From: a virus
DNA: 64,000 nucleotides
Reading direction: 5' to 3' (one strand)
IMG/VR virus record: IMGVR_UViG_3300009545_000003
Span: 1 to 64,000 of that record
Numbering within the stretch: the first letter of the stretch is position 1; each line of letters opens with the position of its first letter. This document shows positions 3,044 through 57,689 of the stretch, in pieces. The notes beneath the pieces were generated by a model, which saw only the letters and a program-made list of their open reading frames with translations, searched no databases and was not told the DNA's origin. A program made the translations under genes and the position numbers.

Positions 3044-3230
3044 TACGTGCCTAGGTACATGCCTGATCAGGTACGTCCCTGAGTGTACATGCCTGAAGGT
3101 ACGTGCCTGAGTGTACATGCCTGAAGGTACGTGCCTGAGTAAGGTACATACCTGAGCGCGCCCGGGTAGGTACGTGCCTGAGGGTACGTGCCTCTGAGCG
3201 TCGTCGTCGTATACTGGCACGTACACGCCT
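3044..3230. repeat. Iteron-like array of GGTACRTGCCTGA
   Basis: About eleven copies of a 12-13 bp unit close to GGTACRTGCCTGA are packed head to tail (units begin near 3044, 3054, 3070, 3085, 3098, 3113, 3126, 3143, 3169, 3183 and 3221). Spacing is mainly 13-15 bp, and a 28-bp pair (3085-3110, 3113-3138) is repeated exactly. Copies with A and G at the variable position alternate. There are no spacers of CRISPR type. The array lies between divergent transcription units with an AT-rich stretch beside it (3240-3360), the usual look of a replication-origin iteron set or multi-site operator. An open frame over it on the minus strand is repeat-driven and not called. Confidence 0.75.
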
Positions 3231-4094: not shown

Positions 4095-4159
4095 TTCACA
4101 AAGTAATCTATTTATAGTTACTTTAATACCTTCGCGGTAACCCCGCAGAGAGGAGCACC

Positions 4160-4522
4160 GTGGCCAACTTTTATCATAAAGATGATCCAGATCTCATCAC
4201 TAAGAAAGTCGGCGCGAAGCTTTTGAGTGAGGGGTACCGTAGCTGGCTAGGACGAATGGTGCCAGAAGACATTAGAGAGCAATTCGGTCTACCTGAAGGT
4301 GCCACATGGGCTGATGCCATTGGCCTTCAAACAGTGAAAAGAGCTCTCGCACTTATCGGTAAAGAGCAAGTTTGTTTTTCCGCAATTACTGAACTCAGAG
4401 AGAGCACGGAAGGTAAGACTCCTGAAAGAGTCATGGTAGCTCAGAACACGGAGTTAATGGCTCTTGCGGCAGCAATTAATCAGCCACCCGCACCTGAGCC
4501 TGGAGAAGAAAATGAGTCATGA
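4160..4522 (+). CDS. Unknown protein; possible terminase small subunit
   Basis: The GTG start at 4160 has GAGGAG 5 nt upstream. The protein has 120 residues. Its middle, with ALALIGKEQVCFSAITELRESTEGKTPERV, resembles the helix and 'E-x-T-E-G-K-P' segment seen in many small terminase subunits and related phage DNA-binding proteins, but no clear N-terminal HTH is visible. It also lies 4.3 kb from the large subunit, with a minus-strand block in between. The terminase role is therefore only a suggestion. The end overlaps the following membrane-protein gene by 11 nt. Confidence 0.5.
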   Translation: MANFYHKDDPDLITKKVGAKLLSEGYRSWLGRMVPEDIREQFGLPEGATWADAIGLQTVKRALALIGKEQVCFSAITELRESTEGKTPERVMVAQNTELMALAAAINQPPAPEPGEENES

Positions 4523-4676
4523 ACTTAGTCAACTAAGCGTCATCATCTCTCTTATCGGTTTTATCATCTACATCTTTACCCATGAAGATCGGCCAAGGTA
4601 CGTCGAGATTGGTAGGTTGATGTTCGCTATCGGTTTGCTAGCCTTTCTGATTCATTACAGCCCGAAGCTGTTTTGA
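4512..4676 (+). CDS. Small two-helix membrane protein
   Basis: The best start is ATG 4512, with GGAG 6 nt upstream, giving 54 residues. An in-frame upstream ATG (4464) has no ribosome site. Two hydrophobic segments are obvious: LSVIISLIGFIIYIF and IGRLMFAIGLLAFLI, joined by a charged loop (THEDRPRYVE). It overlaps the preceding gene by 11 nt. Small two-TM phage proteins include holins and host-membrane modulators, but the location away from the lysis genes argues for an early role. Confidence 0.7.
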   Translation: MSHELSQLSVIISLIGFIIYIFTHEDRPRYVEIGRLMFAIGLLAFLIHYSPKLF

Positions 4677-4847
4677 AAGCGCCGTCAACTGTTCAGCGGA
4701 CTCTTCAAGCCGGGTGCACTGTCTTACAATCGAGGTGCACGAAAGCTCTGGGGTGAAGATAGTGAGAAAGTTAACTGAACGTCGGAGATCATCGAAGTAC
4801 CTAAGAATCTCATCGACACGACATTTATACTCTGAGCGAGTGATCAT
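4638..4847 (-). CDS. Unknown helical protein (69 aa)
   Basis: This is the last gene of a leftward cluster. It is predicted helical with heptad-like spacing (EYKCRVDEILRYFDDLRRSV, RLEESAEQLTALSKQLRAVM), so a small coiled coil is likely. Its 3' end overlaps the convergent membrane-protein gene by 39 nt. Its start overlaps the stop of the upstream zinc-ribbon gene as ATGA. No function assigned. Confidence 0.6.
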   Translation of the reverse strand: MITRSEYKCRVDEILRYFDDLRRSVNFLTIFTPELSCTSIVRQCTRLEESAEQLTALSKQLRAVMNQKG

Positions 4848-52044: not shown

Positions 52045-52222
52045 CCTTAGGCATATTTAATGCCCAGGCAATTTGACTCATAATCTCTTCAGAGAGCAAT
52101 TTCTCATCCACTATAAAACTCTTTCCACCTGCCATAACAGCATCAAGAATCTTACAGTAGTTTTCTGCTGAAAGTTTAGCCCGAAGGATATTCATTTGAG
52201 TTTTTGTGAAGGTTGCAGGCAT
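52007..52222 (-). CDS. Unknown protein (71 aa)
   Basis: The protein has 71 residues and is helical (FTKTQMNILRAKLSAENYCKILDAVM, KLLSEEIMSQIAWALNMPKV). Its last 13 residues (ITQGHSREIQG and neighbours) are encoded within the CCCTGG repeat, so the C-terminus may be there by chance. The start at 52222 overlaps the primase stop by 1 nt. Function unknown. Confidence 0.65.
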   Translation of the reverse strand: MPATFTKTQMNILRAKLSAENYCKILDAVMAGGKSFIVDEKLLSEEIMSQIAWALNMPKVITQGHSREIQG

Positions 52223-53712
52223 TAGATTTCTGGCTCCTCCTTCTCAAATTCTGCTTCAGAATAATCTTCAGTCTGCCGATTAACCTGAGCAGACGGTATT
52301 GACCAAGCTCGGATTACCTTGCCTTTGATCTTGATCAAAGTGTATGCGCAGTTTCTCCGATGTAACACTGAGAAAAGTTCATGGTTGCTAATAATCGTTT
52401 TCTGAGACGTAAGATATCTTTGAAGAAAATCGACCTGAAATAGAACTTGATCTTTTTCAATGATCGGCAATCCTCGAAGTAAGTCATCTCTTCCTTTCGA
52501 CCTATCACTTAAAGCCAGGTAGTCATCAATCTTATTAATCGTTGAACCGAATTGTGAAGCATCATCTGGAGCCTCTATATCAGATTTTTGAGATAATAGA
52601 TTCTTTACTTTCTGCTCCCATTGAGGTTGCTTAACCGGTCTAATCACTAAGTCCATGATTTCAAAACATCTTTTTCTTAGCTTTTCAAACGTTCTGAATT
52701 CATCTGATGACAATGATAAGTCTTTTCCATTCACCTCCAAAATATAGGTTGGTGGGTCACTTAAGATCTTCCGAAGATTTCCCACCGTAATTTCATCGAA
52801 GTTACTCTCATCTTCCCACGGTTTGTGTCCAACTCCAAACGGCAACTGGAGACATTGTTTCCGATCACAATGAGAGCATAATGGTTCTTCATCGCACTTG
52901 TACTGGTACTGTCTTGCATTGAGACTTTTAATAAGCGCCTCGACTTCACGAGATCCAAGAGGAGGCGAAACATAATTCTGGTTATGATACCGAAGCTTGT
53001 CTTCCCAACCATTTGGTGAAGACTTCCGGTAGAATACTCCGTAACTAAACAGTCCGACATTTCTAGTACCCTGGGGAAGCCCTTCCTCTGTAAGAGTCTT
53101 TAAGCATGGCGGCATCTGATCAATCTGTATGAGTCCACTGTTCTGAGAAGAATCGATCTTCTCCTTTCCTGTGTAGTACTGGACTCGGGCAAGAAACTCT
53201 TCAAATTCTACTGAGCCTGTCTCGAAGACGGCGTATCGCACTGTATTCTGTGCGTTGAAATACGGAAGATTGAGCCAGTTGCCAACATTCTGTGTAGTAC
53301 TCTTAAGTTGCTTGGGAAAAATTTCGGTTTTGTTCGGGAATCCTAAGAGACCCGCCCACTTCTTTAGCAGTGATTGTACCGTAGAACTCGGCTGAGCTTC
53401 CTTAAAGAAAACATAAAGGTGAGCTCCACCACTCTTAGAACGGCACACGGTTAGTGGTAGATTCCTTGCCGCTACACGAGAATACAATTCTCGATGATCT
53501 ACTGTGTCTATGTCGACATCGATTGCTCCCCAAAAGCACTTTCCCTCTGAATCAACAGGTACAATACCTAGGCCTTGATCTCCAATTAGATGTTTTCTGT
53601 AATCTTCCTCAGAAACTGGAGTTAAAACGGTAGCCATGTTCCCTGTGGTTCGTTCAAAAGTGCCATGTGCCAGCGCAGAACCACGAAATAGATTCGCAAA
53701 CTTATCTAGCAT
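52222..53712 (-). CDS. Archaeo-eukaryotic-type primase (AEP)
   Basis: The protein has 496 residues. GAIDVDIDTVD (D-x-D catalytic acids), SKSGGAHLYVFF (S-x-x-G-x-H), TEIFPKQ and NVGNWLNLPYFN are the AEP primase motifs also seen in TOTE-type systems. A cysteine set (CDEEPLCSHCDRKQC) about residue 275 looks like a zinc module. The C-terminal part is helical with a wing-like end (LFSVLHRRNCAYTLIKIKGKVIRAWSI). It makes primers for the family A polymerase encoded nearby. Confidence 0.88.
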   Translation of the reverse strand: MLDKFANLFRGSALAHGTFERTTGNMATVLTPVSEEDYRKHLIGDQGLGIVPVDSEGKCFWGAIDVDIDTVDHRELYSRVAARNLPLTVCRSKSGGAHLYVFFKEAQPSSTVQSLLKKWAGLLGFPNKTEIFPKQLKSTTQNVGNWLNLPYFNAQNTVRYAVFETGSVEFEEFLARVQYYTGKEKIDSSQNSGLIQIDQMPPCLKTLTEEGLPQGTRNVGLFSYGVFYRKSSPNGWEDKLRYHNQNYVSPPLGSREVEALIKSLNARQYQYKCDEEPLCSHCDRKQCLQLPFGVGHKPWEDESNFDEITVGNLRKILSDPPTYILEVNGKDLSLSSDEFRTFEKLRKRCFEIMDLVIRPVKQPQWEQKVKNLLSQKSDIEAPDDASQFGSTINKIDDYLALSDRSKGRDDLLRGLPIIEKDQVLFQVDFLQRYLTSQKTIISNHELFSVLHRRNCAYTLIKIKGKVIRAWSIPSAQVNRQTEDYSEAEFEKEEPEI

Positions 53713-55361: not shown

Positions 55362-55631
55362 TCATCCTTTGTCTTTAGGGCACTTAAAATCATCAAGTAC
55401 CCTAATCGGTTTTCGATACTTTGTTATTTCTCCACAGTTACATTCTACAGTACCAATCCGACCCTTGTATACTCCACGAAGTATTGGAGTAGAAGTAACT
55501 GCATAATGAGATTTTTTCTTTTCTGCTTGCCTTCTCGTTTTCAATTCTGTTAAAAGTGTAAGTTTTTCTCGAGCATTATGAATCATTATGTCGAGAATTT
55601 GATCTGATCCGCCGAAATCAGAATGGCACAT
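55362..55631 (-). CDS. Zinc-ribbon protein (89 aa)
   Basis: The protein has 89 residues. A helical, basic first half (AREKLTLLTELKTRRQAEKKK) is followed by a beta and zinc segment: GTVECNCGEITKYRKPIRVLDDFKCPK, with C-x-C and a later C. It overlaps the helicase gene by 14 nt at its start, suggesting it may be a helicase partner. Function unknown. Confidence 0.65.
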   Translation of the reverse strand: MCHSDFGGSDQILDIMIHNAREKLTLLTELKTRRQAEKKKSHYAVTSTPILRGVYKGRIGTVECNCGEITKYRKPIRVLDDFKCPKDKG

Positions 55632-57126
55632 CGTTTTCCTCCTGCATTATTTCTGCTACCCAGCGTGAAGTTGTCCACTCTGCGAGTTTTTCATGATTAC
55701 GAAGAGCTTTCAAAATTATACCGCTTGCTGTTCGTTCTCTGTTTGGTCCGACAACAACATAGTCTTGGAATAGAGCTTGGAATCGTTGACCTGGGCGATG
55801 TACTCTATCTTCACTCTGGGCTCTAGTTAGTAGAGAGTGATCGTTGGATAGATAGTCGACGTTGGAACACTTAGTGAAGTTATGACCAAACCTTCCGGCC
55901 TGTGGCTGACCAATAAGGAGAGCCGGGCCTTCTGGATCTGGTGAATCTGGACGAAAGAGAGAAATAGCGTCTGACCTAACAGTTTTAGACTGTCCTCCTT
56001 GTAGCACACGAACTTCAAGTCCTTCGAACCTCTCTTTGGCCATTCTTTCAAGACGAGCAATTTCTGGTCTAAACCTACACCATGTAATAAGTCTGAATCC
56101 AGGGTCTTGTTCAATCCTGAATTCAAGATAGTCCAAGAACGAAGTCGTAAGTTCACATCCAACTTCCACAACTTGAGGTTCATCACTTTCTTCATCTTTC
56201 ACACCACCTAAGAATCCTGAACAAATCTGCGCCAGTCTAAGTGACTTGACTGGCGCAGTAGTTACGACAGATACTTCATCTGTATTATTAAGATAAGCTA
56301 CGAATTCGTCCCTCATCGAGCAGTAAATTTCCCATGTCTTAGATGACAACTTTACTTCACGAAGGGGCGCTTTCATTTTAGGAAGAATATCTAGACACTG
56401 AGATTTTAGTCTACGCAACACCCACGGCTTTATCTTAGCTTGTATTTCTTCTATATAGTAAAATCCAATGATCTGCTTATTCATGTAACCACCCATTTTA
56501 GCGTGGTGGTTTCGGAAAGCATAGTAGTTTTTGAAACCTAATATAGCAGGATCTAAGAAAGCGAACTGAGAATATAGACCAAGAATTGAGTTACCTACTG
56601 GTGTGCCATTCATGATAGTTCGTCGAGATGCTTTAGGTCTAATCATCATGACGCCCTTAGTCTGAGCCGCTTTGAAATTGGATATGGTAGATGATTCATC
56701 TACTACAGCCCAAAACTTTCTACCAGCTAGCATTGCTAGGAGATTTCTAACGTGAGCAATATTTCTCAAAAGCTCTACGGATACTACAACCCACAGTAAA
56801 CCCTTTGACTTGTCTGGCAGCCTAACACTACGACTAGTAAACTCGTGAATAATGCCAGGAACGAAACTATGCTCAATAATCTGAGAAAATGTTGGGTGAA
56901 TCCACACGTCTTTAACTTGTGCTGGACAAATGATAAGAACACAATCTATCTCCTTATGCTCATATAAGAAACACGCAGTATCAATAACTTGCTTTGTCTT
57001 GCCGGCTCCCATTTCATCAAGAAGGCCAAACGCCGCATTATTGTACAGAGCTTGAACACCATCAAATTGGTGATCAAAAGGTACATATCGGCACTTAGAC
57101 CAGTCAAAAGACCGCACGTCTTGCAT
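55618..57126 (-). CDS. SNF2-family DNA translocase/helicase
   Basis: The protein has 502 residues. GLLDEMGAGKTKQVIDTACFL (Walker A) and WAVVDESSTISNFKAA (Walker B; DESS replaces the usual DEAH) lie in domain 1, with RRTIMNGTPVGNS as motif III. Domain 2 has LITWCRFRPEIARLERMA, LLIGQPQAGRFGHNFTKCS and SEDRVHRPGQRFQAL, the SNF2 motif VI. Related phage proteins move along DNA to clear bound proteins or remodel forks. It has a roughly 240-nt structured non-coding region just upstream. Confidence 0.9.
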   Translation of the reverse strand: MQDVRSFDWSKCRYVPFDHQFDGVQALYNNAAFGLLDEMGAGKTKQVIDTACFLYEHKEIDCVLIICPAQVKDVWIHPTFSQIIEHSFVPGIIHEFTSRSVRLPDKSKGLLWVVVSVELLRNIAHVRNLLAMLAGRKFWAVVDESSTISNFKAAQTKGVMMIRPKASRRTIMNGTPVGNSILGLYSQFAFLDPAILGFKNYYAFRNHHAKMGGYMNKQIIGFYYIEEIQAKIKPWVLRRLKSQCLDILPKMKAPLREVKLSSKTWEIYCSMRDEFVAYLNNTDEVSVVTTAPVKSLRLAQICSGFLGGVKDEESDEPQVVEVGCELTTSFLDYLEFRIEQDPGFRLITWCRFRPEIARLERMAKERFEGLEVRVLQGGQSKTVRSDAISLFRPDSPDPEGPALLIGQPQAGRFGHNFTKCSNVDYLSNDHSLLTRAQSEDRVHRPGQRFQALFQDYVVVGPNRERTASGIILKALRNHEKLAEWTTSRWVAEIMQEENDVPF

Positions 57127-57139
57127 AACCCGTTTTTCC

Positions 57140-57390
57140 CTTCAGATATTAGGTAACTTATTCACGGCTCCTAAACATACACTCGGCATGGTGTTCCCGA
57201 TTACGGAGTATCTTTCCGGGTCGGTTGAGTGTACAAACTACATCCAGTCTTATGGCCAATCTTTCGCTCTCAGACTAGTAGAGCCGTGAATAAGGTACCC
57301 GACTGGTTTGGCTCCGCAAAGTAACCGCCAAGTAAAATCTCTGCGCCGTACCTTCCAGTCTTATCTTTACGGTGTTACCCTTATCGGGTA
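57140..57390 (-). ncRNA. Large structured non-coding region
   Basis: On the minus strand GGTACCTTATTCACGGCTC (57299-57281) pairs with GAGCCGTGAATAAGTTACC (57170-57152) at 18 of 19 positions, enclosing 110 nt. That loop has its own nested pairing (TACACTC / GAGTGTA around an inner CCCG / CGGG). To the 5' side are TACCC-GATAA-GGGTA, an ACCGTA / TACGG pair and CGCAGAG / CTTTGCG, plus two copies of CCAGTCTTAT (57244-57253, 57355-57364 on plus) that can both pair with GACTGG at 57301-57306. The region lacks any coding frame and its first hairpin overlaps the stop codon of the gene at 57381. A regulatory leader, ribozyme-like or large phage RNA are possibilities. Confidence 0.6.
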
Positions 57391-57689
57391 ATTTCTTCAT
57401 CTTCTTCATCTGGATCTTCAGGACCAGAAAATCTTGCCCGAAGAATTACCTTACACTTTTCTTCAGAAAATCTATAAGGATTCTCATAGATTTCTGCTAG
57501 AAGCTCAGATTCCCCATCATAACTTACTCGAACCAATAGAAACTGACAATCAGGTTCTACAGGAACAACCATAAGTTTGTCTTCGAACCCCAGGCCTTCT
57601 TCATACTCCGGCACCAAATCTTCTGGTAATCCAAGAGCAACATCAAAAGGACTGGCGTCAACTCGAATGAGCAGCGCCGTCGATGCCAT
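57381..57689 (-). CDS. Unknown acidic protein (102 aa)
   Basis: The protein has 102 residues. GGAG precedes the ATG at 57689. Beta-like segments (LLIRVDASPFDVALGL, KLMVVPVEPDCQFLLVRVSYDG) end in an acidic tail (PEDPDEEDEEITR). Its stop codon sits in the first hairpin of the downstream structured region. No family recognised. Confidence 0.75.
   Translation of the reverse strand: MASTALLIRVDASPFDVALGLPEDLVPEYEEGLGFEDKLMVVPVEPDCQFLLVRVSYDGESELLAEIYENPYRFSEEKCKVILRARFSGPEDPDEEDEEITR

Follow-up and report, generated by a model that had tools for sequence, protein, structure and literature searches.

A conserved, structured non-coding RNA upstream of a phage helicase gene, in a position that holds tRNA genes in sister phages

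The question raised by this locus is whether a non-coding gap between two phage genes (57127-57380) is an untranslated spacer or a structured RNA, and if it is an RNA, of what kind. The original prediction, made by reading the letters, was that it is a structured phage non-coding RNA, perhaps riboswitch-like or ribozyme-like, that can adopt two mutually exclusive folds. We found that the locus does contain a conserved structured RNA, now supported by the compensatory changes that the prediction had named as its own refutation test. We did not find support for the two folds. The best reading is that this is a new, lineage-specific structured phage non-coding RNA, which adds a family to a kind of RNA already known but still unexplained, and that it is probably a working RNA molecule.

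Setting and conservation of the folded structure

The window (the whole 64-kb stretch of DNA that was analysed) is contained in a 69.6-kb virus record with genes for a terminase, a family A DNA polymerase, a primase, and an SNF2-type helicase. The gap lies in a run of minus-strand genes, in the order HTH regulator, pyrimidine-dimer glycosylase, orf102, non-coding stretch, SNF2-type helicase. This gene run, including the RNA, looks like an operon from its arrangement. There was no open reading frame of at least 50 amino acids inside the structured region, in agreement with the prediction that no frame exists there. The main features are:

57152-57392, minus strand: structured non-coding RNA, whole, in two domains (covariation and sequence constraint, below)
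55618-57126, minus strand: SNF2-type helicase, gene downstream of the RNA (Pfam PF00176 and PHROG 62)
57381-57689, minus strand: orf102, gene upstream of the RNA, without a family match
57138-57143, minus strand: GAAGGG, likely Shine-Dalgarno sequence of the helicase gene, 8 nt past the 3' arm of the inverted repeat described below (from sequence, with comparable spacing in the relatives L002 and L004)

Elsewhere in the window, the primase (52222-53712) matches the archaeo-eukaryotic primase domain of TOTE conflict systems (PF22548) and also PriCT_1. The first 7 kb contain two gaps of ~500 nt without open reading frames of at least 60 amino acids, and a tandem repeat with 14/28-nt units (TACGTGCCTGAGGG) at 3044-3193.

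The minus strand of the region is predicted to fold with an energy of -83.7 kcal/mol, compared to -66.3 ± 4.9 kcal/mol for shuffled sequences (z -3.5), and the corresponding sequence from L002 gave a z of -5.35. Because folding of single sequences is weak evidence, we looked for relatives by searching with the helicase protein. Two relatives, L002 and L003, contain the entire RNA upstream of a helicase that is 89% identical, and their RNA sequences are identical to one another. A third relative, L004 (helicase 75% identical), has domain 1 and is missing domain 2. That is, there are two distinct sequences for the whole RNA and three for domain 1. The RNAs of the window and L002 share 75% identity, compared to 54% at four-fold degenerate positions of the helicase gene next to them, indicating that the RNA is under constraint (purifying selection).

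The shape of the RNA is kept in related phages and the letters are not. Among the 62 pairs of the consensus fold of the window and L002, there were 11 double compensatory changes and 6 single changes that keep the pair, and none of the pairs was broken. The RNAalifold energy of this two-sequence alignment was -83.7 kcal/mol, compared to -30.0 ± 4.2 kcal/mol in 300 column shuffles (z -12.7), and none of the 300 shuffles attained 11 double changes. Sliding the pairing partner by one to three columns left 31-38% paired, compared to 100% in register, and 0-1 double changes instead of 11.

We also used a test that is not circular, in that the fold is taken from one sequence and then projected on the other. 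The minimum-energy fold of the window, projected on L002, had 11 double changes, 8 single changes, and 5 broken pairs. Random placement of the same substitutions broke a mean of 23.7 pairs, and at least 12 in every trial. With the projection reversed, the result was weaker and still significant (18 broken pairs compared to 29.6; a number as low was found in 0.04% of trials). The folded structure is real, beyond chance, and compensatory substitutions preserve it in homologues. A chance structure or an untranslated spacer might be favored by there being only two distinct full-length sequences, and by our not finding the RNA beyond a small clade. Given the intact pairs, the slid and shuffled controls, and the projection test, we consider the probability of either to be very low.

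The same changes define the strand. All 17 changed pairs are kept on the minus strand, and 7 of the 17 would break on the plus strand, indicating a minus-strand RNA, in the same orientation as its flanking genes.

Anatomy of the two domains

Domain 1, at the 5' end, contains four helices, all on the minus strand:

57375-57391, minus strand: P0, hairpin UUACCC/GGGUAA with loop GAUAA, which holds the stop codon of orf102 (57383-57381)
57346-57372, minus strand: P1, pseudoknot stem, CCGUA (57372-57368) with UACGG (57350-57346), changed in L004
57301-57360, minus strand: P2, stem GACUGG (57360-57355) with CCAGUC (57306-57301), with covariation in L002 and L004
57315-57345, minus strand: P3, hairpin within the pseudoknot loop; in L002, two double changes and two single ones that keep the pair

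The location of the upstream stop codon in the 5' hairpin was correctly anticipated. In L002, P0 carries a double change from C-G to U-A, along with a single change of U-A to U-G; L004 has a different hairpin in its place. P1 and P2 cross and therefore form an H-type pseudoknot. P1 is invariant between the window and L002 and is CCGCA/UGCGG in L004, so that the support for P1 is this single change of U-A to C-G. P2 is GACCGG/CCGGUC in L002 and has been largely rewritten in L004, as GAGGU(GG)/(CC)ACCUC. P3 in L004 is GUCA/UGAC. A conserved YGGAGCC (57316-57310) follows P3, and L004 keeps it along with ACCGYAA and RCGGCG. Domain 1 of L004 was detected only by a targeted search of the syntenic stretch with filters off, using a covariance model from the window and L002 (15.1 bits, E 0.0005 over 211 nt). 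The MAFFT alignment of L004 was wrong in domain 1, so its stems were read by eye and with a script.

Domain 1 bears on the possibility of a riboswitch or other switching RNA. The two copies of CCAGTCTTAT on which the alternative folds were proposed are present (within 57243-57253 and 57354-57364; the copies are also written TCCAGTCTTAT), as is the GACTGG at 57301-57306 with which either could pair. In addition, pseudoknotted riboswitches with an embedded hairpin, such as preQ1-II, have a general layout like that of domain 1, including an H-type pseudoknot and conserved loop letters. However, P2 covaries with one copy only. In L002, copy 1 changed from GACUGG to GACCGG jointly with the change of the 3' arm from CCAGUC to CCGGUC, whereas copy 2 keeps GACU for its own partner in P6, AGUCU. 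The last letter of copy 2 is changed in L002, leaving only five possible pairs with the P2 arm, one of them a wobble, and copy 2 is absent from L004. Thus, the alternative pairing is not a conserved feature. Further differences from riboswitches of the preQ1-II type are the lack of a match to any Rfam riboswitch, the lack of a known ligand gene (the downstream gene is not metabolite-related), and domain 2, which has no counterpart there. We regard a switch as improbable.

Domain 2 is a three-way junction in which the P5 helix carries the P6 arm and the P7/P8 arm:

57157-57294, minus strand: P5, closing stem of domain 2, 15 consensus-fold pairs within the 19-bp repeat, 13 of them invariant
57244-57278, minus strand: P6, arm with a conserved internal loop GAGA/CAUA, carrying the second copy of AUAAGACUGG (comparison with L002)
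57177-57234, minus strand: P7/P7b/P8, arm with a terminal loop around AAAGAUAC; 5 double changes, all of them keeping the pair

P5 is formed by the 19-nt inverted repeat (57152-57170 and 57281-57299), which is matched at 18 of 19 positions, spans 148 nt, and encloses nested stems, all as originally described. P7 has three consecutive double changes. Because domain 2 is missing in L004, the RNA is modular. The apical regions of domain 2 at 57201-57265 (minus strand) resemble each other (GAAAGAUACUCCGUAA and GAAAGAUUGGCCAUAA), and less clearly so in L002; this likeness hints at a possible internal duplication.

It is conceivable that the repeat defines an element that functions as DNA, such as a miniature mobile element, an origin, or a protein site. 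The 13 invariant pairs would fit such an element, as would the loss of the repeat-bounded domain from L004. Against this, there are compensatory changes in all of the inner arms and in the repeat itself (between the window and L002, one double change of C-G to G-C, and one pair that is U-G/U-A). The 7 of 17 pair changes that are valid only on the minus strand are valid through G-U pairs, a signature of RNA. The repeat arms have no further copy in the window save distant, chance-like matches, and we did not see a target-site duplication. P5 changes less than the other stems, but the difference was not significant (Fisher p 0.20), and we rejected special conservation of P5 as a DNA or protein site. 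A DNA-level element seems highly improbable.

The pseudoknot, three-way junction, and conserved unpaired letters of this RNA would fit a self-cleaving ribozyme or intron-like element. However, a search of the whole window with Rfam 15 covariance models at the gathering cut-off gave no match, including to GOLLD, ROOL, riboswitches, ribozymes, and group I introns. At E up to 10, positions 57000-57500 gave only chance matches far below the cut-off, none of them to a ribozyme or intron family. A group I intron had been considered because of the pseudoknot and the context of tRNA-Leu(UAA) and gave no model match. To our knowledge, and by inspection, the fold has no equivalent of the P3 hairpin of HDV-like ribozymes. 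A ribozyme or intron-like element is very improbable, and no positive evidence was found for ribozyme-like or riboswitch-like function.

The slot upstream of the helicase gene

We compared the position of the RNA with the corresponding position in virus contigs that encode a helicase at least 65% identical. In several sister phages tRNA genes occupy this slot: tRNA-Leu in L016, tRNA-Leu, tRNA-Arg, and tRNA-Met in L146, and, in L144 (292-955), tRNA-Leu and after it a gene for a GIY-YIG/NUMOD3 homing endonuclease, which immediately precedes the helicase gene. L015 has tRNA-Met followed by a well-folding stretch of ~220 nt. In L014, L145, and L147 there is neither the RNA nor a tRNA, and the start of the helicase gene overlaps the preceding gene. 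L143 had too little upstream sequence to judge. Scans of the whole compared records, several of which are fragments, found no tRNA outside the slot, and records with the RNA gave no tRNA at all. That is, the slot holds the only tRNAs of the sister phages, indicating that the RNA sits in the RNA-gene slot of the clade. The window phage has no tRNA at all; the RNA occupies the slot rather than adjoining tRNAs. The RNA itself does not match a tRNA or tmRNA by ARAGORN or RF00005.

The stretch in L015 (5772-6000, between tRNA-Met and helicase) folds with a z of -4.58 compared to shuffles and has no Rfam match. It is unrelated to domain 2 by covariance model; the slot may thus hold another structured RNA, of a different type, in this relative.

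The explanation that we prefer, tentatively, is that the RNA is transcribed with the operon and most likely excised, to become a stable RNA or ribonucleoprotein that acts in trans. It would be part of a polycistronic transcript from the HTH gene through the pyrimidine-dimer glycosylase gene, orf102, and the RNA to the helicase gene. No promoter-like site was found directly before the RNA, and one with 11 of 12 matches precedes the HTH gene. The lack of one immediately upstream of the RNA, together with the tRNA slot, suggests that the RNA would be released from the operon transcript in the same way as phage tRNAs. RNase III-type processing could plausibly take place at P0 and at the long P5 helix. 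The excised RNA could then persist and act in trans during infection.

The main rival is that the RNA functions in cis as an intercistronic leader of the helicase gene. It might bind a protein, possibly the helicase itself or some other protein of replication, or it might shield the mRNA, thereby setting helicase translation or mRNA stability. Two findings count against action in trans, in that a cis leader would account for them just as well. First, the RNA immediately precedes the helicase gene in each of the three lineages (the window, L002/L003, and L004) even though its upstream neighbor changes. In L002 an additional open reading frame with a Gly/Thr-rich tail (4140-4736) lies between the orf102 homologue and the RNA, and the RNA has stayed with the helicase gene. 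Second, the distance from the 3' end of the structure to the Shine-Dalgarno sequence is nearly constant (6-9 nt) in the three lineages. In L004 the pseudoknot alone precedes AAAAUAAAGGAG, and this also fits a leader, as do the overlapping helicase starts of the relatives that lack both RNA and tRNA. A fixed position by the start region of one gene in homologues, as seen here in three lineages, is expected of a cis operator, but is not decisive given the tRNA slot. Since tRNA genes use the same slot in sister phages, the closeness of the RNA to the helicase gene needs no function in cis. Furthermore, we found no conserved pairing of the structured domains with the Shine-Dalgarno sequence, and domain 2 can be absent. 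The absence of domain 2 from L004, like there being only two distinct full-length sequences, also weighs against action in trans. We consider a cis leader a serious possibility, below action in trans.

A known example of such regulation is the T4 gene 32 translational operator, in which an H-type pseudoknot precedes the region where translation of a replication gene starts. The pseudoknot here has a similar position, most closely so in L004. In the window, a second domain of 150 nt lies between the pseudoknot and the start, unlike the operator. The gene controlled there is an SSB gene, and here the gene encodes an SNF2 helicase.

Distribution and relation to known phage RNAs

The RNA appears to be confined to a small phage clade, as far as the searched collections of viral contigs and genomes indicate. 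A blastn search against phages and plasmids gave no real match. Degenerate DNA patterns for domain 2, run on 2.9 million viral contigs and 84,980 species genomes, gave either no match or the known contigs alone. Extra matches to domain 1 patterns either failed the test for P1/P2/P3 pairing or resembled coding sequence. The covariance models R1 and R2, run on the relatives' loci and on the whole records of 16 relatives, found only L002 and L003. Matches of R2 on the opposite strand were read as the mirror of the same hairpins and not as a second RNA. A candidate pseudoknot after the tRNA-Leu of L016 (ACCGCAATT) failed the model (2.4 bits) and the topology test.

T4 has a single cluster that combines tRNA genes with rnaC and rnaD, which are stable RNAs, and with segB, a homing endonuclease gene. 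RNAC and RNAD (species 1 and 2 stable RNAs) are small phage RNAs of 139 and 119 nt located in the tRNA-gene cluster, and their function is unknown (PMC9697503). The position of our RNA is comparable, and segB is of the GIY-YIG type, as is the endonuclease gene in the slot of L144. RNAC ends in a tRNA-like T arm, unlike the RNA described here, and neither of its domains proved homologous to RNAC or RNAD, the highest covariance score being 3.4 bits (E 0.37 over 381 nt). GOLLD and ROOL are ornate phage and prophage RNAs that are often near tRNA islands, and ROOL has multiple pseudoknots (PMC12286853). The RNA in the window is comparable in position but differs in size, with ~240 nt compared to often more than 800 nt for GOLLD, and matches no Rfam model.

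It is also conceivable, although rather unlikely, that the slot of the tRNAs was taken over by a new class of phage RNA. Such a compact RNA or ribonucleoprotein would act in trans; it could, for instance, serve as a decoy or guard against host defence, or bind ribosomes or a nuclease. It would be assembled from two modules, and the pseudoknot module could also occur by itself.

Reading the raw sequence can detect real RNA structure that family databases miss. Orphan structured RNAs near phage tRNA genes, including T4 RNAC and RNAD, GOLLD, and ROOL, resist functional assignment. The RNA in the window is a further, independent, and compact RNA in a tRNA slot, with a clear modular anatomy and a defined strand. 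Because some relatives lack it or have tRNAs instead, presence and absence can be compared, and small mutational tests are possible.
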